In this document: piece after piece, positions 7,370 to 18,902 of the stretch
Layout of the letters: each line of letters begins with the position of its first letter
Position numbering within the stretch: position 1 is the first letter of the stretch
Assembly: GCF_000621545.1 (NCBI RefSeq)
Contig: NZ_JHYA01000015.1
Location: forward strand, 1 to 52,007
Reading direction: 5' to 3'
Length of the DNA: 52,007 bases
From: Anaerovibrio lipolyticus LB2005
Lineage (GTDB): Bacteria > Bacillota > Negativicutes > Selenomonadales > Selenomonadaceae
Notes under the pieces: model-generated
The model's database searches: none
What the model saw: only the letters and a program-made list of their open reading frames with translations
Told to the model about the DNA's origin: nothing
Made by a program: the position numbers and the translations under genes

Positions 7370-10300
7370 TTAGCCCATAACGTTGCTTTTTAGTTTCATA
7401 GCATCTTTTGCCAAAAGCTTCCGCTCTAATTTCCAAGTAATATTCATTGGACGGCTACCCGTATGAGTTACATAATTTACTGGACCAACAAAAATATATG
7501 GTGCAGTTCCCATACTATTCTTTTTGAAATCTCTGACAAAAAGCAATACTGTATTCCCCATATTCTTATGATTAATGTATCGTTGCCCCGTAGGCGCCGT
7601 TTCAGATGTGGTACTCTGACTTTGCCAATGAAATAATTCATCACTAATAAAGTAATCATCATACATTGTTGTAGGAGAATAATCTTTATCAGATTTATTG
7701 ATAGTCACAAAAAATAAATCTGTCTTTTTGTCGTTGACATATAAAACTCCCTGACGCATAGAAGACAATTTAAGATAATCCATAGCTATTAAAATTTGAT
7801 CTTTAGTATAAGAACAATGTAAATCCATTGGGCACTCATATTCTAATAATAATGGCTTATACAGAATATCTGTCTTATCAAGATTATATTCCAATATTTC
7901 TATTATTTCATTAAGAACCATTGGGCACTCAGACAATCGTTTTAGATTTTCCTGAATTTCTTTACTTGTAGGATCAAAAGTCTGTACATTCCAAACAGTA
8001 ACATAAAACATCCACAATAAATGTTTTTCGTACCCTGATAAACTACCAATATCAGTCGTCTTAATATTAGGCAAATATCTCAGTAAAAATTTAATCCAAC
8101 GCCTAGAATTAATAGTAACAATTTTAGGGAATGCCTTTTTTATAAACAATTCAGTCATCGGTTCATTATATTTCTCAATGACTCCGGCTGACATACAAAG
8201 ATCGTAAAAACCGTAATTTTTATAAATAGCAGAAATAGGCTGATGATAATATTTTAAGAATTCGCTCAATGTAGGGATTCGTTTAGTTTCATCTACAAAA
8301 TCGTTTATCCGTTTAACAATACTTGCCCTATTATTAAATGCTTGACTAATATTATCAAGTACATATTCTTTCGCCTTTTTCTCCAGCTGAACAAAACACC
8401 CTCTAGGAACTGATGGAAAACCCTTATCCATTTCTGTTTTCACACTGTGCCTAGTATTGGAAAGTAATGCTGCAAATTTTTCTTCGTAATTATATTTCTT
8501 ATTTGCCTGGCCAACGAAATCTAAAACTGTTAGACAATCCTTCCCTTCAAATAATCTTAAGCCTCGACCCAACTGCTGTAAAAATACAGTTAATGATTCT
8601 GTAGGACGCAAAAACAGTACCGTATCTATTGCTGGTATATCTACACCTTCATTGTAAAGATCAACAACACAAATAATTTTAATTTCGCCAGCTAATAATC
8701 GTTTCTTAGCCTTATTTCGATCATCATTCGGTGTATCTGAACTCAGTGCTATAGAACTCAACCCACGCTTATTAAAAAAATCTGACATAAACATAGCATG
8801 CTGTATTGATACGCAAAAGGCAATACACTTCATAGTTGATGCATTAGTAACATAATAACTGATGGAATCAACAATATGCCCCGCTCTTTTTTCTGCAACA
8901 TATCTGTCAATAGTATAAATATTGCTAAGCTCTGTTTTATCATAGCCACCATTAGTCCATTTAACGCTGCTTAAATCCACATCATCGGATACGCCAAAAT
9001 ATTGAAACGGACACAATAGCTTTCTGTTTATTGCTTCAGGAAGTCTTATTTCCGCCGCAATACGTCCATCAAAATAATTTAAAACTTCTTTCCCATCATT
9101 TCGCTCTGGGGTAGCTGTTAACCCCAAAAATATTTTCGGAGTAAAATAATTTAAAATATTTTGATACGTTTTTGCCGCAGCATGATGAAACTCATCTACA
9201 ATAATAAAGTCATAATAATCTGCCGCAACATTTTCGTATAGTTTGCGTGACTCCGCTGTTTGTATTGAAACAAATAAATGCTCAGCACTAGACGGTTTAT
9301 CATAAGAACCGACAAATAGCTCACCAAAATTTGGTTCCTTCAATACACTGCGAAACACTTCTACACTTTGCTTTAAAATTTCTTCCCTATGTGCTATAAA
9401 TAACAATCGTGCAGAGCCATTATCACGCCTAAAACGTCTATAATCAAAAGCTGAAATAAGTGTTTTGCCGGTGCCTGTAGCTGCTACTATTAAATTTTTA
9501 AAATGTCCTTTTTCTTCACGCTCCACTTGCAAGCGATCTAATATTTCTTGCTGATAGGAATAAGGATTTATATCCAAAACATACTCCCGCTCCTCCATGT
9601 TTCCGATGTGTCTTTCATCAGCAATAGCTTTAATTAACCGGTTTTTTTCTGTAAAAGAATATGATTCAAATTCAGGCGTACACCAATATGTCTCAAAGGT
9701 TGCTTCTATCTTTTTAATATTATTAGGCTGATCTTGTTTAGTAAGCTTTACATTCCATTCCAATCCGCTGGACATGGCAGCATTTGATAAATTGGATGAG
9801 CCAACATAAGCCGTAGTAAAACCTGTATCACGATAAAAGATATATGCTTTAGCATGAAGCCTTGTTCTTTTTGTGTCATATGAAATCTTGATTTTTGTAT
9901 TAGGCAATTTTGCCAATTCATCAACAGCTTTTACATCTGTTGCCCCCATATATGAAGTTGTAATTATCCTAAGCTGACCACCATTACCGGTAAATTCTTT
10001 CAACGGTTCCAATATCAGACGCAGACCTGTCCATTTTATAAATGAAACCAACATATCAACTCTATTAGCTGTTTTCAGTTCTTTATTTATTTCAGAAAAC
10101 ATGGTAGGTTCATTGGGAGCACCAGTAAAGAGACTACTGGAAGATATAGAGGTCTCTGGCCGCTCAATAATTTGCTCTACCTTCTTGCCTATAGCCAATT
10201 TAGGATTATTTGCCTCTATTAGTCCCAATAACTGTTCCCCTTTGCCAGTTATTGTTTTAGCATCATAATAATCATCACAAGTATAGTTCTTTACAAGTTT

Positions 10301-10519
10301 AATAATGTTATTCGCCAACTGAACCTGTTGTTCAATTCCCTTGTCGCGGTCCAACAAATTATCCAGGCCTGCCTTAATAACATCTCCTGTATATTTTGAA
10401 ATAATTTCCGAGGCTTCTTCCTTATCTATGTCCTTTATATTTTTGCATTTATCCGGACACTCAGCCAATTCCTTAGACATAGCTTTGTTTATTACAGCTT
10501 CATAAATACCTGATTTCAT
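7370..10519 (-). CDS. PLD-like nuclease / SF2 helicase / DUF3427 protein
   Basis: This large protein (1049 aa) has an N-terminal helical region, a PLD-type nuclease motif (LHAKAYIFYRD at 221-231, then SSNLSN), a superfamily 2 helicase core and a DUF3427-type C-terminal region. The core shows AATGTGKT near 346-353, DEFHH at 442-446, LGLTATPER near 465-473 and a final QQLGRGLR. Such proteins resemble restriction-type translocase-nucleases and are often placed with phage-defence genes (established for SF2-plus-PLD sets in general, inferred here). A promoter at 10573-10601 and a terminator upstream at 10636-10667 make it the first gene of its operon. AGGGGTGAC precedes ATG 10519. Several nuclease-helicase defence families could claim it. 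Confidence 0.85.
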   Translation of the reverse strand: MKSGIYEAVINKAMSKELAECPDKCKNIKDIDKEEASEIISKYTGDVIKAGLDNLLDRDKGIEQQVQLANNIIKLVKNYTCDDYYDAKTITGKGEQLLGLIEANNPKLAIGKKVEQIIERPETSISSSSLFTGAPNEPTMFSEINKELKTANRVDMLVSFIKWTGLRLILEPLKEFTGNGGQLRIITTSYMGATDVKAVDELAKLPNTKIKISYDTKRTRLHAKAYIFYRDTGFTTAYVGSSNLSNAAMSSGLEWNVKLTKQDQPNNIKKIEATFETYWCTPEFESYSFTEKNRLIKAIADERHIGNMEEREYVLDINPYSYQQEILDRLQVEREEKGHFKNLIVAATGTGKTLISAFDYRRFRRDNGSARLLFIAHREEILKQSVEVFRSVLKEPNFGELFVGSYDKPSSAEHLFVSIQTAESRKLYENVAADYYDFIIVDEFHHAAAKTYQNILNYFTPKIFLGLTATPERNDGKEVLNYFDGRIAAEIRLPEAINRKLLCPFQYFGVSDDVDLSSVKWTNGGYDKTELSNIYTIDRYVAEKRAGHIVDSISYYVTNASTMKCIAFCVSIQHAMFMSDFFNKRGLSSIALSSDTPNDDRNKAKKRLLAGEIKIICVVDLYNEGVDIPAIDTVLFLRPTESLTVFLQQLGRGLRLFEGKDCLTVLDFVGQANKKYNYEEKFAALLSNTRHSVKTEMDKGFPSVPRGCFVQLEKKAKEYVLDNISQAFNNRASIVKRINDFVDETKRIPTLSEFLKYYHQPISAIYKNYGFYDLCMSAGVIEKYNEPMTELFIKKAFPKIVTINSRRWIKFLLRYLPNIKTTDIGSLSGYEKHLLWMFYVTVWNVQTFDPTSKEIQENLKRLSECPMVLNEIIEILEYNLDKTDILYKPLLLEYECPMDLHCSYTKDQILIAMDYLKLSSMRQGVLYVNDKKTDLFFVTINKSDKDYSPTTMYDDYFISDELFHWQSQSTTSETAPTGQRYINHKNMGNTVLLFVRDFKKNSMGTAPYIFVGPVNYVTHTGSRPMNITWKLERKLLAKDAMKLKSNVMG

Positions 10520-10994: not shown

Positions 10995-11071
10995 AACAAA
11001 TAATCCTCCTTACTATAGAATAAACATATATTCGTTGCTATTATTATACAGAACATATATTTGTTTTTCAA

Positions 11072-11288
11072 CTATAAATTTGATTTGATAGGCTTTTGCC
11101 ATGTAGTGATATTATTGAACACTAAAACTTCTTTATTATCATACTTAATCAGATAAAATTATATCCTCAAATTCCTCTTTCCCCAGTATAAAGCCACAAT
11201 TAACAAGGCGTTCTTTACATTTTTCATATAATTCATCCACCATCCTCCATTATGAAGGTGATGTCGCCTTCCCGAGAATAAAGCGTAT
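11072..11288 (-). pseudogene. Decayed mobile-element orphan genes
   Basis: Bases 11244-11288 are about 87% identical to 17643-17687 inside the zinc-ribbon gene and encode the same TLYSxEGDIxFIMED block. After a stop, a 32-codon frame (11243-11145) begins MVDELYEKCKERLVNC. The reading then continues in another frame (KYDNKEVLVFNNITTW) to a stop at 11072. The open pieces in two frames point to frameshift decay. I infer leftovers of an integrative element also represented at 17.5-18.0 kb. Confidence 0.45.
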
Positions 11289-11542
11289 TCTCATCTTATC
11301 CGTTTCCTTTGCTTTTGGCTAATATTATATCATAATCACTGCATACCCAATTCGCACGACATGATTTTCGGATAAAAATGCCCAAGCTAAAACAGACCGC
11401 GAAACCAGTAAAATCAATGGTTCCACGGTCTGTATTTTTATACCTTCCGATAAGGTGGCTTTATTGGAAGTTTATTACTTTATATTCCACGACAAATTGC
11501 TGAGGATAATGCCGATGTCATGATTGTCTGCATTTTCATCAC
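11289..11542. other. Intergenic region with one strong hairpin, no gene seen
   Basis: No coding frame with support is seen here. Its one clear feature is the 14-bp hairpin at 11393-11432. With the decayed genes on its left this makes about 550 bases without an intact gene. Confidence 0.5.
11393..11440 (+). terminator. Intrinsic terminator, possibly bidirectional
   Basis: A 14-bp stem, CAGACCGCGAAACC (11393-11406) with GGTTCCACGGTCTG (11419-11432), has two wobbles. TATTTTTAT follows on the plus strand and a TTTTAG tract on the minus strand. No intact plus-strand gene lies before it, so it may mark a lost gene. Confidence 0.65.
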
Positions 11543-11803
11543 CTACTTTAGTCTACTCAATTCGTCTAAATAATCCTGACTTACATTTTTATTGGATTTT
11601 TCCTTCATAATTCTCAGAAAATTGACTCTTGAAATTTTTCCAGTATTTTTGTCGACCTTGACTGGAGATGCTACAGAAGCAATTCCATTATCTTTTCTTA
11701 CAAGATTGAATATATAGCAACCTTCTTCCTCAAAAAAACTACTGATACTACAAGAATAATATTTTTCTGCAACCATTTTTGCAGCATCATCTTTTTTTAT
11801 CAT
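11543..11803 (-). CDS. Small protein of unknown function
   Basis: The product (86 aa) begins MIKKDDAAKMVAEKYYSCSI, with a GGAGA-type ribosome site just upstream of ATG 11803. It has mixed helix and strand character and a segment KVDKNTGKISRV that recalls PepSY- or immunity-type beta turns, but not enough for a call. It lies after the terminator at 11908-11927 and so is probably transcribed separately from the DUF262 operon. No signal peptide or membrane segment is seen. Confidence 0.55.
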   Translation of the reverse strand: MIKKDDAAKMVAEKYYSCSISSFFEEEGCYIFNLVRKDNGIASVASPVKVDKNTGKISRVNFLRIMKEKSNKNVSQDYLDELSRLK

Positions 11804-11901
11804 TTTTTAATCTCCCAACACATAGTCCTTCTGCACCTTTGATAAGATTTTTTAAACCTTCCTTATGTCTGATTATGCAATAATAGCAACATTCTCCCAA
11901 A

Positions 11902-11929
11902 CAAAAAGCTACCAGTTAGCTGGTAGCCA
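11902..11929 (-). terminator. Intrinsic terminator of the DUF262 operon
   Basis: GCTACCAG (11908-11915) and CTGGTAGC (11920-11927) form a perfect 8-bp stem with a 4-base loop. TTTTTG follows on the minus strand. It lies directly after the 53-aa gene. Confidence 0.85.
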
Positions 11930-11935
11930 CATACA

Positions 11936-12097
11936 TCAATACTTTACATTATGAATTTTTTTCCATAGCTCAAAACTCTTTTTTGCTTCTTCTGGAGCAT
12001 CATCGTGCATGGTGACAATGTGCGTTTCTTCGTCATAGTCGAACCAGTCTGTGTTTGCCATCCACTTGGTGCTTCCTAAATGCTTTGCTGAAGCCAT
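11936..12097 (-). CDS. 53-residue protein, last gene of the DUF262 operon
   Basis: The product has 53 aa (MASAKHLGSTKWMANTDWFD at its start), is rich in Trp, Asp and Glu and has no signal peptide. AAGGAG sits 9 nt before ATG 12097, so the longer frame starting at 12148 is not used. It begins 47 bases after the ADP-ribosylglycohydrolase stop and is followed at once by a strong terminator. It is therefore probably part of the four-gene operon. Function unknown; small accessory or immunity-type roles are possible. Confidence 0.65.
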   Translation of the reverse strand: MASAKHLGSTKWMANTDWFDYDEETHIVTMHDDAPEEAKKSFELWKKIHNVKY

Positions 12098-12144
12098 TTT
12101 CACCATCTCCTTTTTGCTAATAATACAACATCCAGTGGGATTAT

Positions 12145-13224
12145 TCAATCCGAATATTTTTCATTAATCTCATCAAGCTTTTCCTGGTATCTATCTTTGT
12201 CAATGATACCCCGACTTAAAAGAAAATCAATAGCTTCAATGTGTTCTTTTTTTGTAATCTCAGCTGTTCCCACTACATTAACCCCCATTGAATGTGTAGA
12301 GTTTTCATCCGACTTCATTTTGCATATTTCATCCAAATGGGGAATCTTGGAGTCAAAAATATGCGGATTACGTTGCAAACAAAAGTTTCTCCACCGCTGC
12401 AGAACATTAAGAAGCATATCATCCAGATATGAATATGCTTTTTCCTTAATCCAATCAGGGATACCATAAGCAGCCTCTGCAATACTTCCAGTAATAGCTG
12501 CCAATGTATCACTGTCACCACCAAGGGAAATGGCATTGCGAATGGCATCCTCAAAATCCGTACTTTCCAAGAATGCAATTATAGCCTGTGGTACAGTGTC
12601 CTGGCATGTTTCATTAAACTCGTATGTAGGGCGAATCTCATCCAAAGATTTTGAAAGATCATAACCATATTCCTTTTCGATATGGTTCTTTATACGTCTT
12701 TTACATTCGTCATGATTGTCATGTATAGGCCTATCAAAGTCTCTATAATGACCAGTAAAATAAAAGCGACTTAAAAAAATTGCATCAGCGATTGCCATGG
12801 CGCCCTTTATCCCCTCCGGATGATTATGGGTAACTTCGGCAGAAAGCTTTGCTCTGGCCCTTCCGTTACGGGGCCAACATCCAGTTCTCCCCATAAAACC
12901 GCAATCCATCATCCAACCACACGGAGAAACTCTCATAGCCGACCCATTTCCGAAGCTGTTATAGGGTTCACGTATATTGGAAAAAAGCCACATCCCAAAT
13001 CTACAACCATATCCGGCATCAGGATACATTCTGCCGTACTTCTTCATAGCATCTATGAAATCGTCCTTTTCCCCACCGTTCATTATTGCTTCAGCAATGG
13101 CACATGTCATTACGGTATCATCCGTAAAAAAGCAATCCTCACGGAATAATGGAAAATCCTTTGTTTTAATATTATCCCACTCATAAACAGAGCCAACGAT
13201 ATCACCAATTATTGCACCTAACAT
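12145..13224 (-). CDS. ADP-ribosylglycohydrolase family protein with SHOCT-like tail
   Basis: The 359-aa protein carries the metal-binding signatures of the DraG/ARH family: GDIVGSVYE (7-15), TDDTVM (34-39), a THNHPEG block and SLGGDSDTLAAI. These enzymes hydrolyse ADP-ribose from proteins or nucleic acids. The last 40 residues (HIEAIDFLLSRGIIDKDRY) look like a SHOCT-type oligomerisation tail. About nine extra residues before KLSAEVTHNHPEG (GRTGCWPRNGRAR) are unusual against the family as I recall it. ATG 13224 has GGAGTGA upstream; it lies 19 bases after the second DUF262 gene. Confidence 0.88.
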   Translation of the reverse strand: MLGAIIGDIVGSVYEWDNIKTKDFPLFREDCFFTDDTVMTCAIAEAIMNGGEKDDFIDAMKKYGRMYPDAGYGCRFGMWLFSNIREPYNSFGNGSAMRVSPCGWMMDCGFMGRTGCWPRNGRARAKLSAEVTHNHPEGIKGAMAIADAIFLSRFYFTGHYRDFDRPIHDNHDECKRRIKNHIEKEYGYDLSKSLDEIRPTYEFNETCQDTVPQAIIAFLESTDFEDAIRNAISLGGDSDTLAAITGSIAEAAYGIPDWIKEKAYSYLDDMLLNVLQRWRNFCLQRNPHIFDSKIPHLDEICKMKSDENSTHSMGVNVVGTAEITKKEHIEAIDFLLSRGIIDKDRYQEKLDEINEKYSD

Positions 13225-13243
13225 ACAGATCACTCCATACTAA

Positions 13244-15442
13244 TTACTGAACTCCTTTTCCAATCAAATAGTTTTTCAATCTTATGATTCGATCCTCAGT
13301 ATCAATACCTGATTTATTCTGCTTAATCTCAATCCGTTCAACAATCTCACCTGTCTCTGCATTCTTCAGAATATATGCGGAATTTTCACAGGCAATATAA
13401 TTTTCTCCTATATCAAGCCGCTGTCCCATCGAATCCTTATTAAGCCGATTTCCGTCGGGATCAACTGCTTTCAGATAAGGCATATAGGTACTGGATGACA
13501 TCTGAGATTTTGTTTGCATTACAGAGAAATTGTACGGATTTTCATCTGCTTGAATATTACTGTATTTACCATAACTCCCTGGGCGGAATACACTATACTT
13601 CACATAGTAATAGCGCCAAGGGTAAGTGCTAGAATCTTCACAGGATTTTATAAATTCATTTATAATTTGTTCTAGCAATTCATTGCTGAAGCACTGAGCC
13701 TTTGAAAGTAACCTTATTAGAATATCCCTTGTGTTCTCAAAGCCTTCATTTTTACTCTTATGAAACAGTTCATGCCATGCAAGCTGCATGTTCTTTGAAG
13801 CGTACTGATAACGCCACTGATTTCTTTCACGCTGCCCATAGTTACCAATAGACATCAAAGCACAATCAATCAGATCCCATTTGCAGTCAAATAGTGAAAC
13901 GAAGCGGTCTGCATATGCCAAATTATTAACTCCGACAATGCTAATCTGCCCCTTAAGAATTACATGGTCTTCCAATTCATGTACGAGAATTGCTTGATCT
14001 GGATTCTGCTCCAGAAAAGCCTTCTTCTCTTTTTCCTCTGCAATCTGGCTAGGATTAAAGCTGTTCTCTATAGATTCATCAATCTCTCCGGTAAGCATTA
14101 TCATCTCTGTCTGTTTCAAAATAGCAGGCAAGCGATTACGATCAATTCTGTCGCTGATCTCATCTTCAGAGTTTTGAATAAGATTATTAACAGAACGCAC
14201 TCTCTTAACAAAATCAGCATCTGTAATTTTATCTCTGTTGCGAAGAAAATAGATAATCGCAAACAAAAGAACAATACGATTCAAAGGGAACTGCCTTATT
14301 CTTCCTGTCTTATCTGCATATGAATGTATACAATCTGCAAATATATCAATCTTGTATCTGGAATCCACAACTATCTTTCCATCTTCATGCTCATTCGACA
14401 TAAAAGATTCCATAAACTCGGTAGGATTATTATATCCATCAACCACGCACAAGCAGTCAAAATAAGATTCCATTGTTCTGATATTATTAAGGACCTTGCT
14501 CTTATCCCCTGTAAAGTATTCAATCAGCATATCAAACTCATCAGAGCTCTTACCTTGAGGTGACTCACCGCCTTGATAGCAGATAATGTCACAAATGAAT
14601 CTAAAATACTTCAGAAACTCATCATCTGTAACGGCATCATCCGGGCTGCCACTACCAGAATCCCTGTACCGCCAAAGCATATCCGTCCAATCACGATCTA
14701 TCTTTCTCATTATCCGCTTGGACGTCTCATCATCCACGTCACGAACACAACGCTCTAATTCAGCTTTGAAATGCTCAAATCGTGTCAGTGGCTTTCCTCG
14801 GGAGTTCATCTTGATATACAACTCATCCGTAAGCCCCATGTCTTTAATTGGCAAGAAATAAAATGTTATCGCTTCATCTTTTAACTTTTTCCACAAATCT
14901 TCAACATCTTTGAATTTATCATTTATATCATCCAACATTACCAACATGGAGCTGATTGTAGGGTCCTTCTGCCAGTCCAATGGAAACCATGCCTGATCAA
15001 CTATCTCATCCGACAGCTTTACTTGAAATGAAGGCTTGAAACCGATAAGTTCTTTGCAAAAATACCTTGCACTATATCTGGTCTCATATCCGAAATTCAT
15101 GAGAAATTCATATTCTTTATCCGGCACTTCACATTTCTTTGCCGCATACCAATGAAGAAGAAACAGGGTTGTCAAACGCTGCTGCCCGTCAAGAGGTGTC
15201 ATTACACCGTCTTCATCGATATCTCCGTAAACGAAATCCAGTGTAATCGGCTCACCAACTACGGCATTAAATAAAGAATCAAGGAACCTGCTTCTCACTC
15301 GATCAACATCTGGATCTTTTCTTCCCTGTGCATAGTCTCTTTGTATGATCGGAATGGTGATTTTTTGAAGCTTAACCCCTGCTTCTTTGTTAACAAATGT
15401 AGTTTCAAACATATTCATAAATGAACGCAGTGTAGTATTCAT
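13244..15442 (-). CDS. DUF262-family protein, long form
   Basis: The protein (732 aa) begins with a DUF262 (GmrS/ParB-like) domain showing PIIQRDYAQGR (31-41) and DGQQRLTTLFLL (85-96). This fold binds and hydrolyses nucleotides in GmrSD-type modification-dependent endonucleases. The C-terminal half is long, with no obvious DUF1524 His-Asn motif. ATG 15442 overlaps the stop of the upstream DUF262 gene by one base (TAATG), so the two are translationally coupled. I infer one complex in which this subunit pairs with the nuclease-bearing 15442-17145 product. Confidence 0.85.
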   Translation of the reverse strand: MNTTLRSFMNMFETTFVNKEAGVKLQKITIPIIQRDYAQGRKDPDVDRVRSRFLDSLFNAVVGEPITLDFVYGDIDEDGVMTPLDGQQRLTTLFLLHWYAAKKCEVPDKEYEFLMNFGYETRYSARYFCKELIGFKPSFQVKLSDEIVDQAWFPLDWQKDPTISSMLVMLDDINDKFKDVEDLWKKLKDEAITFYFLPIKDMGLTDELYIKMNSRGKPLTRFEHFKAELERCVRDVDDETSKRIMRKIDRDWTDMLWRYRDSGSGSPDDAVTDDEFLKYFRFICDIICYQGGESPQGKSSDEFDMLIEYFTGDKSKVLNNIRTMESYFDCLCVVDGYNNPTEFMESFMSNEHEDGKIVVDSRYKIDIFADCIHSYADKTGRIRQFPLNRIVLLFAIIYFLRNRDKITDADFVKRVRSVNNLIQNSEDEISDRIDRNRLPAILKQTEMIMLTGEIDESIENSFNPSQIAEEKEKKAFLEQNPDQAILVHELEDHVILKGQISIVGVNNLAYADRFVSLFDCKWDLIDCALMSIGNYGQRERNQWRYQYASKNMQLAWHELFHKSKNEGFENTRDILIRLLSKAQCFSNELLEQIINEFIKSCEDSSTYPWRYYYVKYSVFRPGSYGKYSNIQADENPYNFSVMQTKSQMSSSTYMPYLKAVDPDGNRLNKDSMGQRLDIGENYIACENSAYILKNAETGEIVERIEIKQNKSGIDTEDRIIRLKNYLIGKGVQ

Positions 15443-17145
15443 TATGCTTCCTCCGTTGTCAATATTTCTTCTGCAAGATACGGCTTCAAAACTTTATTGA
15501 TTGCCTTGATATAAGCAACCCTATCCGGCTGTCCCCAAAAATGGAGCTGATTGTCTTCTGACGGTGTATAGTATTTTAAAAACACCTTTTTGGTACAAAA
15601 CGGAATATACTGTCCGTCTTTATCCATTTCTATAATAAGATTTCGTTTTACATCAAATGCGGAATTACTCAGTGCGGCATTATCGTCTGAACGGAGAAGG
15701 GCCATATTTCCTATGGAATGTAGATACTCTGTATTTCCCTGTACTGAAAGTAAACTGGTAACCTTCTTTTGTAAATCATCAAATTCTTTACCTCCAAGAT
15801 CAGGCTTATCAATAGCTGTTTTCATTGACTCGATTAGCTCATCATCATGAGAAACAGCACGAACAGATGCTATATGTTTGCCCAACCATTCTTTCCACAA
15901 TTCCTGGGTATTCAAGCCCTCGGAATGCTGAGCATGTATATGCTCAAGAGACCACGCAACCTTTCCCTTTTCATCGTATTTAAACTTGTCAAACGGGAAC
16001 CATTGTGTATTCTCACCATTTAATCTAACTGACTCAACGTTGAATAGAAGCAGTAGTTTACTGATGCGTTTTCGATCCTGTGCTTTTTCATAACTAAGCT
16101 CAGAATAATTCCCCTGAATTGCAATACTATCTCGAATATATGAATCCAGCACACCTCTAAATTCTTGCTTAGTCTTTCCATCAGATATCCCGAAGATTTC
16201 TTGCAAAGTCAGCTTCTCTGAAGCAATCAAATAGCCAATTTTATGGTAAAGCTCATGATTTTCAAACCAGTCCTTAAGAATTAGGAACGTTTGCTGAATT
16301 TTTCTCCATATTTCATCCAATGTCATGGATTTACTCAGCTCATCAATTTTAAAGAATGTATAATACTTCTCACGATTATCGGCAGGTTTATCCGATATCA
16401 AATCAAGTATCAGATCAATTCTTGTCTGATATCTAGTATTAGTTCTATTGGTCAGAAAATACCACAGAGCATCATTGTGAAGCTCCTTCTCAATATTATC
16501 CCACTGCAAGGATATCTCTTCCTGCTTCGCTCTGCCTTTTTTTGCCTTTCCTTCACTACTAAGGAATACAGCCTTTACCAGTTCAGCGCTTGTCAATGGA
16601 ATTTTCCCGATATTGAGACGAGTGAACAAGCCGATAGCATCTTCACTTTCACCAACTTCATACCAGATAATCTTCACATTCTCTTTAAAATATTCATAGA
16701 TATGCAGGACACGAATTTGCTTATCTTCCTCAAACCATTTCATAATCGTTTCGTAGGCATTGGCTATAAACCAGAAATCAATGTTTTCATCGCGTCTGGA
16801 CAAATCCACGCTTTTTAGATATTCCTGAGAATTGTCGCGTGTGTCATACACGAGCTTAAATGCTGGTTCATCAAAAAACGGATTTACATCCCTCATATAT
16901 CTGTAGACCAGATATAACGTCGTCAAGCGCTGCTGACCGTCTATCAATTCATAGGCATCTCCATTCTTACGAACCACTACCGGCTGAAGGCAATAATTTT
17001 TCTTTCCATTCGAATAAACATCATTCAAGAGGCGAAGGACTTCATCTTTCCCCCAACGATACCCACGTTGATAAGAGGGAACATAAAATGTTCCTTGAAT
17101 TTCACTTACCAGCTTTGTCTCCAATAATATCTGGCTGTTCACCAT
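15442..17145 (-). CDS. DUF262-DUF1524 protein (GmrSD-like nuclease)
   Basis: The protein (567 aa) has an N-terminal DUF262 domain (YVPSYQRGYRW at 21-31, LIDGQQRLTTL at 67-77). Its C-terminal DUF1524 domain carries the HNH-like LEHIHAQ (400-406, H402 and H404) and IGNMALLRSDDNAALSNSAF (478-497), matching the family's EHI-x-PQ and GNLxLL...N signatures. GmrSD enzymes cut modified phage DNA in an NTP-dependent way (established for the family). It is the first gene of the operon; GCGGGGA precedes ATG 17145. Single-chain GmrSD relatives usually suffice, so a second DUF262 partner is notable. Confidence 0.88.
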   Translation of the reverse strand: MVNSQILLETKLVSEIQGTFYVPSYQRGYRWGKDEVLRLLNDVYSNGKKNYCLQPVVVRKNGDAYELIDGQQRLTTLYLVYRYMRDVNPFFDEPAFKLVYDTRDNSQEYLKSVDLSRRDENIDFWFIANAYETIMKWFEEDKQIRVLHIYEYFKENVKIIWYEVGESEDAIGLFTRLNIGKIPLTSAELVKAVFLSSEGKAKKGRAKQEEISLQWDNIEKELHNDALWYFLTNRTNTRYQTRIDLILDLISDKPADNREKYYTFFKIDELSKSMTLDEIWRKIQQTFLILKDWFENHELYHKIGYLIASEKLTLQEIFGISDGKTKQEFRGVLDSYIRDSIAIQGNYSELSYEKAQDRKRISKLLLLFNVESVRLNGENTQWFPFDKFKYDEKGKVAWSLEHIHAQHSEGLNTQELWKEWLGKHIASVRAVSHDDELIESMKTAIDKPDLGGKEFDDLQKKVTSLLSVQGNTEYLHSIGNMALLRSDDNAALSNSAFDVKRNLIIEMDKDGQYIPFCTKKVFLKYYTPSEDNQLHFWGQPDRVAYIKAINKVLKPYLAEEILTTEEA

Positions 17146-17359
17146 ATAAAATCCCCGCTTTCTATATGAATCTGCTCACTTATCCATAACAATAGCCATA
17201 CCAGTATGACATCACGATGACGTTTTTATACGAATTTCTATACTACAAACAGTTCTACACTATTTCCTTAAACCCTTTTATTACCGTTAATATCGTATGC
17301 ACTTTAAAAATATAAATAGTTCTTACTACTGATGATACCTCCGCCCCTATACATAAAAT
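17146..17359. other. Upstream region of the DUF262 operon
   Basis: No gene is seen here. On the minus strand a weak pair, CTGTTT and TATAAA with 16 bases between, lies around 17218-17245. It could be the operon promoter but is low confidence. The short repeat-rich patch near 17200-17222 (ATACCAGTAT, CATCACGATGACG) could hold an operator. Confidence 0.35.
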
Positions 17360-17400
17360 ACCCCCCAAAGCCCAATAACAGGTGTTTGAGGGGATTTTCT
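17360..17400 (-). terminator. Intrinsic terminator
   Basis: CCCCCCAAAGCCC (17361-17373) pairs imperfectly with GGTGTTTGAGGGG (17381-17393). T-rich bases lie on both sides. It would separate the zinc-ribbon gene from the DUF262 operon. Confidence 0.6.
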
Positions 17401-17541
17401 TTGTATCAAACTAGGTATTAAGGTATCCCGTAGGAGCTGTACTTTGATACAAATGTAACGATTATCGCTTAAATCAGCTTAACGATGAATGTATTGTAAA
17501 CCTACACCATTAAACCATCTCTGAGGGATTCTCTAAAAGAC

Positions 17542-17802
17542 TTACTCAAACTCCGCTGTCAGTTTTCCTCTAAATTCTCTCGTGTCCTCATCATTTGGTT
17601 CACCAAAATAAAATCCTATCACTGAAGTTGTATTCTTCTTGTCTTCCATTATAAAGATGATGTCACCTTCCTGAGAATAAAGCGTATACACCTCCACTGC
17701 TTCCCTTGTACCGCAAGCAGGACAGATCTCAGTACGGTTATCTTTCCTTGATAGTGCTGGATGACTGTCATATTCTTTACCGCAAATCGGACATACTCTC
17801 AT
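17542..17802 (-). CDS. Small zinc-ribbon protein of integrative-element type
   Basis: The product (86 aa) starts MRVCPICGKEYDSHPALSRK with a second Cys pair (CPACG), giving a C-x2-C...C-x2-C zinc ribbon in the first 33 residues. The second half (YTLYSQEGDIIFIMED) is repeated in decayed form at 11.24-11.29 kb. Proteins with this CPICGKEY...HPALSRKDN opening are frequent on Firmicutes conjugative elements and prophages (from memory). Its ATG overlaps the stop of the DUF4314 frame (TAATG), which implies coupling to it when that gene was intact. Confidence 0.7.
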   Translation of the reverse strand: MRVCPICGKEYDSHPALSRKDNRTEICPACGTREAVEVYTLYSQEGDIIFIMEDKKNTTSVIGFYFGEPNDEDTREFRGKLTAEFE

Positions 17803-18011
17803 TATTTCACCACCTCAACCTCATCCTCGCCCAGAACCACATTTAATCCCGAGCCGTTATCTCATGCCACCATAACCGAACCGATGTCATCCACGCCTCT
17901 TACCGTACCCTCGGTGCCAATCGGCGGTGCCTGGATATCATCCATCTTGATCAGACGGACTCTCATTCCTGCCAGGTATGTAGCCTTGGCCTTTGCAATC
18001 TCATCTCACAT
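17802..18011 (-). pseudogene. DUF4314-type gene with two in-frame TGA codons
   Basis: A 70-codon frame reads as a DUF4314 protein (RVRLIKMDDIQAPPIGTEGT, VRGVDDIGSVMVA, then DNGSGLNVVLGEDEVEVV) with TGA at codon 2 (18008-18006) and codon 50 (17864-17862). Codon 50 falls where the family has Trp in a WDNGSG motif. GGAGG lies 7 nt before ATG 18011. The stop overlaps the next gene's ATG, so the frame is otherwise well kept. Most simply it is a recently inactivated gene; TGA read as Trp is the alternative. Confidence 0.7.
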
Positions 18012-18065
18012 AGCATGACCTCCTCGCCACCATTATGTCGTGAATTTGCCATGCTGTAAGCGGGC

Positions 18066-18097
18066 AAAATAAAACTGCCCTCATTTAGAGAGCAGCA
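18066..18097 (-). terminator. Intrinsic terminator (minus strand)
   Basis: ACTGCCCT (18074-18081) pairs with AGAGCAGC (18089-18096) with wobbles, followed by TTTTATTTT on the minus strand. It ends the flavin reductase transcript. Confidence 0.75.
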
Positions 18098-18110
18098 ATA
18101 TGTAAGATTT

Positions 18111-18674
18111 TTATTTCAATTTTGCACCATCATGAAAAGCCTTGCCAACAGGTTTTTCATCCAGCTGCAAGTATGTGTGATTAACTCCATCAAAGATAAT
18201 CGGTGCCAACTTGGCCACATCTACCTTATCATCAGAGGTCAATACCCGTTCGTCAATGCTGACATTTTTTATTTTTCCTACAAGCTGGCAAGCCTTTCTG
18301 TCATAGCGAAGCACTTCGCACTCAAAAGCCATTGGTAACTCATTGATAATAGGTGCGTCCACGAACTCGCTCTTTACAGCTGTAAACCCAGCCTTCTTGA
18401 ACTTATCAGGTGCCTTCAGACCGCTTTCAATTCCCACATAATCACATGCTACCAAATGGGACACATCCCCCATACTCACCGTAAAGGCTTTTCTTTCCTC
18501 AAGATTATCTGATGTTTTATGGTTAGCCCCCATACAAATAAAAATTTCATCGTCATCGTGGATACCACCCCATGCCGCATTCATGGCATTAGGGTTGTCT
18601 TCCTTATCATAGGTAGCGACGATGAATACCGGCTGTGGGTATACCCAAGGCTTAGCTCCAAAATTTTTTCTCAT
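18111..18674 (-). CDS. Flavin reductase family protein
   Basis: The product (187 aa) matches the FMN-binding flavin reductase-like (split-barrel) family: PQPVFIVATYDKEDNPNAMN, followed by WGGIHDDDEIFICMGANHKT and a C-terminal GKIKNVSIDE. Members bind FMN and reduce flavin or act as flavoprotein oxidoreductases with NAD(P)H; the partner is unknown. AGGGAGATG precedes ATG 18674 and a terminator follows, so it is a single-gene unit. A dispersed repeat copy (18731-18867) begins 57 bases upstream of the start. Confidence 0.85.
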   Translation of the reverse strand: MRKNFGAKPWVYPQPVFIVATYDKEDNPNAMNAAWGGIHDDDEIFICMGANHKTSDNLEERKAFTVSMGDVSHLVACDYVGIESGLKAPDKFKKAGFTAVKSEFVDAPIINELPMAFECEVLRYDRKACQLVGKIKNVSIDERVLTSDDKVDVAKLAPIIFDGVNHTYLQLDEKPVGKAFHDGAKLK

Positions 18675-18730
18675 ACTTACATCTCCCTTGAATTAATCCG
18701 AAAATTGAAAATCTATTTTCTATGACTAAT

Positions 18731-18867
18731 TATAACACCATTGTTCAAATTTTTTTCTTTCAGAAGAAAAATCTTCCAATTAGCGTTTCCCTAAAGGACT
18801 AACTCACTTCATTCGTGTCGCAACGAGGTGGGGGACATCTTAAAGCTCGTTATATATTGTGAATATA
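18731..18867 (+). repeat. Dispersed repeat, copy A (IS200/IS605-like remnant?)
   Basis: This segment shares its left part (TATAAC-CCATTG-TCAAATTT through AGAAGAAAAATCTTCC and AATTAGCGTTTC) and its right part (AGGTGGGGGACATC, then TTAAAGCTCGTTATA) with 37785-37946. The middles differ in length and sequence. No transposase is present. Subterminal hairpins and conserved ends suggest a non-autonomous element or decayed ends of an IS200/IS605-group element; this is an inference. Confidence 0.55.
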
Positions 18868-18902
18868 AAAAAGTCATCTTAACTGCATCACAAAAAATGC
18901 AA

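Follow-up and report, generated by a model that had tools for sequence, protein, structure and literature searches.

Positions 1 to 52,007 of contig NZ_JHYA01000015.1 from Anaerovibrio lipolyticus LB2005, hereafter the window, encode a row of four genes on the minus strand, here termed A through D. Genes A and B most probably specify a two-protein restriction pair of the GrwAB type, and C (encoding an ADP-ribosylglycohydrolase) and D (encoding a 53-residue protein) are probably separately acquired neighbours; judged from sequence, we give this reading a probability of about 0.86. The initial annotation attached no named system to these genes. The core pair matches GrwAB, and the four-gene set no longer counts among candidate new defence systems.

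The GrwAB-like pair

GrwAB, published in 2025 from Vibrio cholerae (WASA, VSP-II), is described as a two-protein, GmrSD-like type IV restriction system (PMC12137116). According to the published descriptions, GrwA comprises DUF262 and DUF1524, and GrwB comprises DUF262 and an extended carboxyl-terminus of unknown nature; both genes are required, mutants in the NTPase and nuclease motifs are inactive, and protection extends to phages whose DNA carries sugar-modified hydroxymethylcytosine or 7-deazaguanine (PMC12137116, PMC12409362). The reported targets are Tevenvirinae and Queuovirinae, with escape through mutation of the modification enzyme DpdA, and the accompanying survey gives 471 hits, in about 1% of genomes (PMC12137116).

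Gene A (15442-17145; 567 aa) matches both Pfam GmrSD_N (E 1.5e-33) and GmrSD_C (E 2.6e-6). Gene B (13244-15442; 732 aa) matches GmrSD_N alone (E 2.7e-20), with no GmrSD_C match at E <= 0.1. The likeness to GrwAB has three parts: two adjacent genes, with the DUF262-DUF1524 gene first and the DUF262 gene second; a first protein with the motifs QR, DGQQR, FxxxN, and H...N...N; and a second protein with a long carboxyl-terminus that is not DUF1524. The initial annotation's general expectation, a defence-type DUF262/DUF1524 system of two coupled chains, is borne out, and the motifs are intact in both chains. Its more specific "split GmrSD" is not: A alone has both DUF262 and the nuclease; DUF262 occurs again in B, followed there by a carboxyl-terminal region of B's own. 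The long second subunit is GrwB-like, and the pair is built as in published GrwAB.

The motif positions can be compared residue by residue. Gene A encodes R27 (QR), D69-R73 (DGQQR), N178 (FxxxN), H402, N480, and N489; gene B encodes R35 (QR), R89 (DGQQR), and a third motif, YxxMN (Y209 to N213), in which Y replaces F. The residues mutated in GrwAB are R81, H431, N521, and N530 of GrwA and R86 of GrwB (PMC12137116). Their counterparts in the window are R73, H402, N480, and N489, together with R89; the two asparagines are nine residues apart, exactly as in published GrwA. The nearest relative (locus L137) has 89, 431, 522, and 531 in A and 89 in B. Across 127 aligned pairs, including that of the window, R73, H402, and N489 of A and R89 of B are invariant except for gaps, and N480 shows a single substitution, by R. 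The EH[IV]H motif occurs in none of 72 B relatives. Both proteins thus keep their active-site motifs.

A conserved two-gene unit

The A stop and B start codons overlap as TAATG (15444-15440), and close coupling is general. From 138 loci, 126 remained after removal of two duplicates (L113, L246) and of ten that did not yield A and B as distinct frames. Of the ten, L120, L131, L176, L185, L231, L234, and L240 have a cut, fused, or broken pair, and no pair was expected in L243, L244, and L245. (The near-identical L083 and L084 are both within the 126.) Gene A lies directly 5' of B on the same strand in 122 of these loci. The median gap, with the A stop counted, is -4, and it is exactly -4 in 23 loci; each start was set at the earliest possible codon, a choice that biases the gap toward overlap. 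Four loci depart from this arrangement: A is broken into two frames in L098 and L157, an IS3 gene separates A from B in L106, and the overlap is longer in L124.

The same arrangement recurs in each collection. Among 189 Selenomonadaceae genomes, 29 contain B matches, some of them partial, and A is upstream of B in all 20 family loci with wider flanks, truncated by the contig end in one of them and split in another. In the species-level collection (the best 80 of 90 loci), an A frame, whether whole, cut, split, or remnant, is directly 5' of B in 77; in L120 it is reduced to 64 residues. The remaining three are L131 and L185, cut before A, and L176, a natural fusion. In G225's order (Bacteroidales), B is present in 25 of 295 genomes, and the 20 loci newly fetched from that order show A then B in 18, a fusion in one (L234), and a contig cut before A in one (L231). 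Overall, A-B loci span Bacillota, Bacteroidota, Actinomycetota, Pseudomonadota, Spirochaetes, and Campylobacterota. We take A and B to be a conserved two-gene unit. The fusions place both in one frame (L176:1878-5663, 1262 aa; L234:4811-8524, 1238 aa, truncated at the contig end), which points to one complex.

The pair also occurs on plasmids, in Peptoclostridium, Rhodococcus, Paraburkholderia, Hymenobacter, Chryseobacterium, Aliarcobacter, Paenisporosarcina, and Bartonella; a Paenarthrobacter plasmid locus has it with an IS3 gene between. Seventeen plasmid records match B, at best with 60.7% identity. No match was found in 50,697 phage records, and none of eight pattern matches in viral contigs was confirmed. 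In the records searched, B appears to have no close phage or plasmid home.

Predicted structures, and how firm the identity is

The A model (mean pLDDT 87.3) aligns along nearly its whole length with SspE (7drr: Z 15.8, rmsd 18.0, 371 aligned, residues 1-558) and with DndI (9jfl: Z 15.2, rmsd 11.2, 445 aligned, residues 9-559). The B model (mean pLDDT 91.2) matches the same enzymes over its first part: DndI 9jfl (Z 12.7, rmsd 17.1, 342 aligned, residues 1-472); SspE 7drr (Z 12.2, rmsd 10.9, 377 aligned, residues 1-469); and, again inside the first 470 or so residues, SspE 7drs (Z 12.5, rmsd 8.0, 289 aligned). Outside the GmrSD family, the next row has Z 4.4. Protein B would comprise a GmrSD-like helical part followed by a carboxyl-terminal region of residues about 490-732; beyond about residue 490 no PDB match emerged from the whole-chain searches, the region not having been folded or searched alone. 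Weak PDB profile matches to eL22 and S100 proteins were rejected as chance.

Several points weigh against the GrwAB assignment. Membership is argued from architecture, gene order, and motif positions, taken from published descriptions. The fold evidence for B is moderate: for mostly helical models, Z below about 13 can mean a common arrangement only, and by Foldseek B has one match with E < 1e-3 (SspE 6jiv, 9.9e-05, TM-score 0.21 by query). Moreover, the carboxyl-terminal region of B is highly variable across the family. This variability suggests that family members may read different modifications.

These points leave some room for an independent two-protein restriction family, GrwAB-like in layout only and responding to a different trigger: the likeness is known from the description of GrwAB rather than from its sequence, and the carboxyl-terminal half of B varies widely. 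Gene order, domain content, and motif set, however, are identical to those of GrwAB, and motif positions are similar; such a family is unlikely.

The glycohydrolase as a neighbour

Gene C (12145-13224; 359 aa) begins 19 bases after B and matches ADP_ribosyl_GH of the ARH/DraG family (E 2.5e-33, scanned without its first Met). Its motifs TDDT, GNGSAMR, THNHPEG, and GGDSDT suggest an intact ADP-ribosylhydrolase. The SHOCT-like tail noted in the initial annotation is weakly supported: a similar tail is present in a congener copy with 93% identity, but the tail alone matches SHOCT_2 below the cut-off (E 0.18), and no such tail is seen in the relatives compared at about 75-80% identity.

Gene D (11936-12097) begins 47 bases after C and has no Pfam match at E <= 0.1. 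It is followed by an intrinsic-terminator-like hairpin (11928-11907), with nine pairs, a four-base loop, and a T tail. The initial annotation described this layout correctly: four minus-strand genes, the TAATG overlap, gaps of 19 and 47 bases, and the terminator position. Its "perfect terminator" holds as a nine-pair stem with a T run that closes the gene set and is the longest of four terminator-like sites in 11500-17600; shuffling that interval gives a mean of 3.5 such sites, so the hairpin is distinguished by length and place only.

Could the four genes form a defence operon, in which C reverses phage or host ADP-ribosylation that would block the restriction complex? The layout agrees with this: B and C are 19 bases apart, and a scan of the coding strand from A to C found no terminator-like site. 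The wider distribution does not. Of 128 other B loci, 124 lack a glycohydrolase in the flanks examined (many of them short), three have a whole one, and L144 has a 46-aa fragment on the opposite strand. (The 128 are 20 plus 88 plus 20 loci, some with B alone; L235 and L237 score low, and L105, the duplicate L113, and L238-L242 were left out. The search for C used tblastn in the first 20 loci and C-based profiles in the others, so distant glycohydrolases may be missed.) C-like enzymes occur in 50 of the 189 Selenomonadaceae genomes (E <= 1e-20), and five of the 29 B-matching genomes have both B and C, on different contigs in the four besides the window genome.

Gene C also occurs apart from A-B. 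Congener G012 has it at 93% identity on a 4.7-kb contig (L061) that lacks A-B, and the search for B gave no match in the G012 genome. The alignment with the window begins at 13245, within the B stop codon (13244-13246, minus strand), and runs through C to 12117; the segment junction lies precisely at the end of B. Loci with relatives of C at about 75-80% identity lack A-B and contain macro and vWA genes. Of 18 C loci, 11 contain the cluster with a macro member and nine that with a vWA-like member (one member of each cluster was typed, the vWA match below its cut-off). One C locus is a Selenomonas plasmid, whose annotation includes genes for macro, vWA, and AAA proteins and for nucleotide metabolism.

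The check proposed in the initial annotation, co-occurrence of the four families, was run: A-B pairs are found mostly without the glycohydrolase, the outcome for which it had itself called the operon a chance assembly. A nuclease that works with an ADP-ribose eraser is likewise unsupported as a conserved feature, given three of 128 loci and a G012 copy of C on a contig without A-B. By this distribution, C is not part of the conserved A-B pair, and a conserved four-gene operon is rejected: A-B loci mostly lack C, the junction is at the B stop, and D is in a separate block.

A residual link nevertheless counts against complete separation. The three positive loci all have a same-strand glycohydrolase within about 1 kb of A-B: in L160, 137 bases after B (53% identical to C); in L142, about 0.44 kb before A (47%); and in L148, about 1 kb beyond B, separated from it by one gene and fused to a phosphatase-like domain (24%). 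In 50 genomes, three glycohydrolases near A-B compare with 0.11 expected, an optimistic excess, because the 50 loci were selected by flank length out of 80 after the three positives had been seen, with all three included. An N6-methylase control in the same genomes gave one, where 0.39 was expected within 6 kb and 0.65 within 10 kb. A further 20 loci yielded no glycohydrolase, and few were expected there. The signal is weak and may reflect the clustering of defence genes; without such clustering, a pure chance-neighbour view does not explain three against 0.11.

Read as functional partnership, the excess favours the four-gene operon. Yet the position of the enzyme differs each time, its identity to C is modest to low, and the 50 loci were selected after the fact. 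Together with the junction at the B stop and the macro and vWA contexts of C relatives, this makes the four-gene operon very unlikely.

A looser association is also conceivable. Heavily modified, T4-like phages attacked by GrwAB also carry ADP-ribosyltransferases. For that reason, ADP-ribosylglycohydrolases might have been recruited beside GrwAB repeatedly and independently, as anti-anti-restriction partners that undo phage ADP-ribosyltransferase attack. We consider this speculative and improbable. If true, the window, L142, L148, and L160 would be four convergent two-layer defences, each coupling modified-DNA restriction to reversal of phage ADP-ribosylation. In the library searched, no paper combined DUF262 with an ADP-ribosylglycohydrolase; a study of ADP-ribosylhydrolases on RNA concerns other enzymes (PMC11833690).

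Separately, single DUF262 proteins lie a few kilobases from C-like glycohydrolases in L105 (12648-14456) and L244 (9066-11159); neither locus yielded a GrwB-like gene. In a DUF262 search of the 50 genomes, the matches listed also include a single DUF262 gene close to a glycohydrolase, in G235.

Gene D and a variable site

Gene D lies within a block (12116-11885) that is absent from G012; homology between the window and G012 resumes at 11884. Five other genomes of the family have remote relatives of D (37-45% identity), none of them beside A, B, or C in the flanks examined. Three of the five (L248, L250, L251) adjoin phage-like genes, judged by eye without a profile test. Perhaps D is a phage-type small protein. 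Downstream in the window is a gene for an 86-residue protein (11543-11803), a relative of which stands just before C in G012; the G012 contig has this family twice (L061:3829-4089 and L061:1-132).

The whole region, window 11012-18887, is a variable cargo site. Two congeners (L263, L264) have different genes between the same flanks; flanks of 94-98% identity surround different cargo in G004, and flanks of 96% and 87% surround a third cargo in G018. A PLD-nuclease/helicase/DUF3427 protein (7370-10519; 1049 aa; PADLOC mREase_IV, 752 bits) is at the same site in G004 and so belongs to the local backbone. At about 18727-18842 is a repeat of about 110 bases that recurs many times in congeners of the genus, at identities reaching about 95%.

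Neighbourhoods of GrwAB-like pairs

In 109 loci, a neighbour cluster with a WYL-regulator member, typed in L160, recurs near the pair in 19 (L102, L103, L118, L128, L132, L133, L138, L142-L144, L149, L150, L153, L156, L159, L160, L163, L167, and L179). A 3'-5' exonuclease-like and an AAA-ATPase cluster each occur near 13. Type I restriction genes also appear, as HsdR-like (9/109) and HsdM-like (8/109) clusters, in L127, L132, L137, L138, L151, L161, L165, L166, L177, L178, and L184. One member of each cluster was typed. A candidate third subunit after B, in several genus-g10 loci, was discarded; its typed member is GatB.

Proposed mechanism

In the model that we favour, A (GrwA-like) would join a DUF262 NTPase and modification sensor to a His-Me (DUF1524) nuclease, and B (GrwB-like) would add another DUF262 domain, its motifs intact, and an extended carboxyl-terminal region of unassigned fold. 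By analogy to GrwAB, the two genes would be co-transcribed and their products would act as one complex that cuts phage DNA with modified bases. Genes C and D would be separately acquired cargo of one variable site, probably transcribed by read-through from A-B, since A-B lie directly upstream.

These results provide a broad comparative base for the GrwAB family: 126 loci from several phyla, with conserved catalytic residues and natural fusions. They also offer a confident model for GrwB, whose first two thirds would resemble GmrSD enzymes and whose nuclease end would be replaced by a region so far unmatched.

Comparison with known systems

Clusters centred on ADP-ribosylglycohydrolase (ARG) genes are predicted to counter viral ADP-ribosylation; in the published set, links to phosphatase, WYL/Nudix, and vWA/peptide-binding genes are described as common, not universal (PMC9503650). 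Gene C resembles the central enzyme of these systems in its intact catalytic motifs, and relatives with about 80% identity often stand with macro and vWA genes. In contrast, C in the window has no adjoining vWA, macro, phosphatase, or WYL gene; a NUDIX-domain gene is 4.8 kb away, not adjacent.

The structures of SspE, DndI, and BrxU (PDB 7drr, 9jfl, 7p9k) give fold matches along A and the first 470 or so residues of B. However, GmrSD, BrxU, and SspE are described as typically single-protein systems, without a B-like partner (PMC12137116). Protein A scores 92.9 bits to the PADLOC HEC-06 model, but a single-chain GmrSD or HEC-06 system was rejected, the partner gene being adjacent in 122 of 126 loci.

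TgvAB, from VPI-2 of V. cholerae, is likewise a GmrSD-like type IV system of two proteins, each containing DUF262, paired as DUF262 and DUF262-DUF1524 (PMC11411939), and the presence of some A-B relatives in type I restriction loci recalls it. By the published description, tgvA, without DUF1524, precedes tgvB, which encodes DUF262-DUF1524 (PMC11411939); the window has the DUF1524 gene first, as does GrwAB. GrwB and TgvA are called distinct outside DUF262 (PMC12137116), and the extended carboxyl-terminus is given as the mark of GrwB (PMC12409362). Assignment to TgvAB is therefore very unlikely.

The GrwAB type remains the preferred identity. Here the differences concern setting: GrwAB is from V. 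cholerae, in another phylum, and its neighbour is a Shedu gene, whereas in the window the pair is followed by the glycohydrolase and the 53-residue protein.

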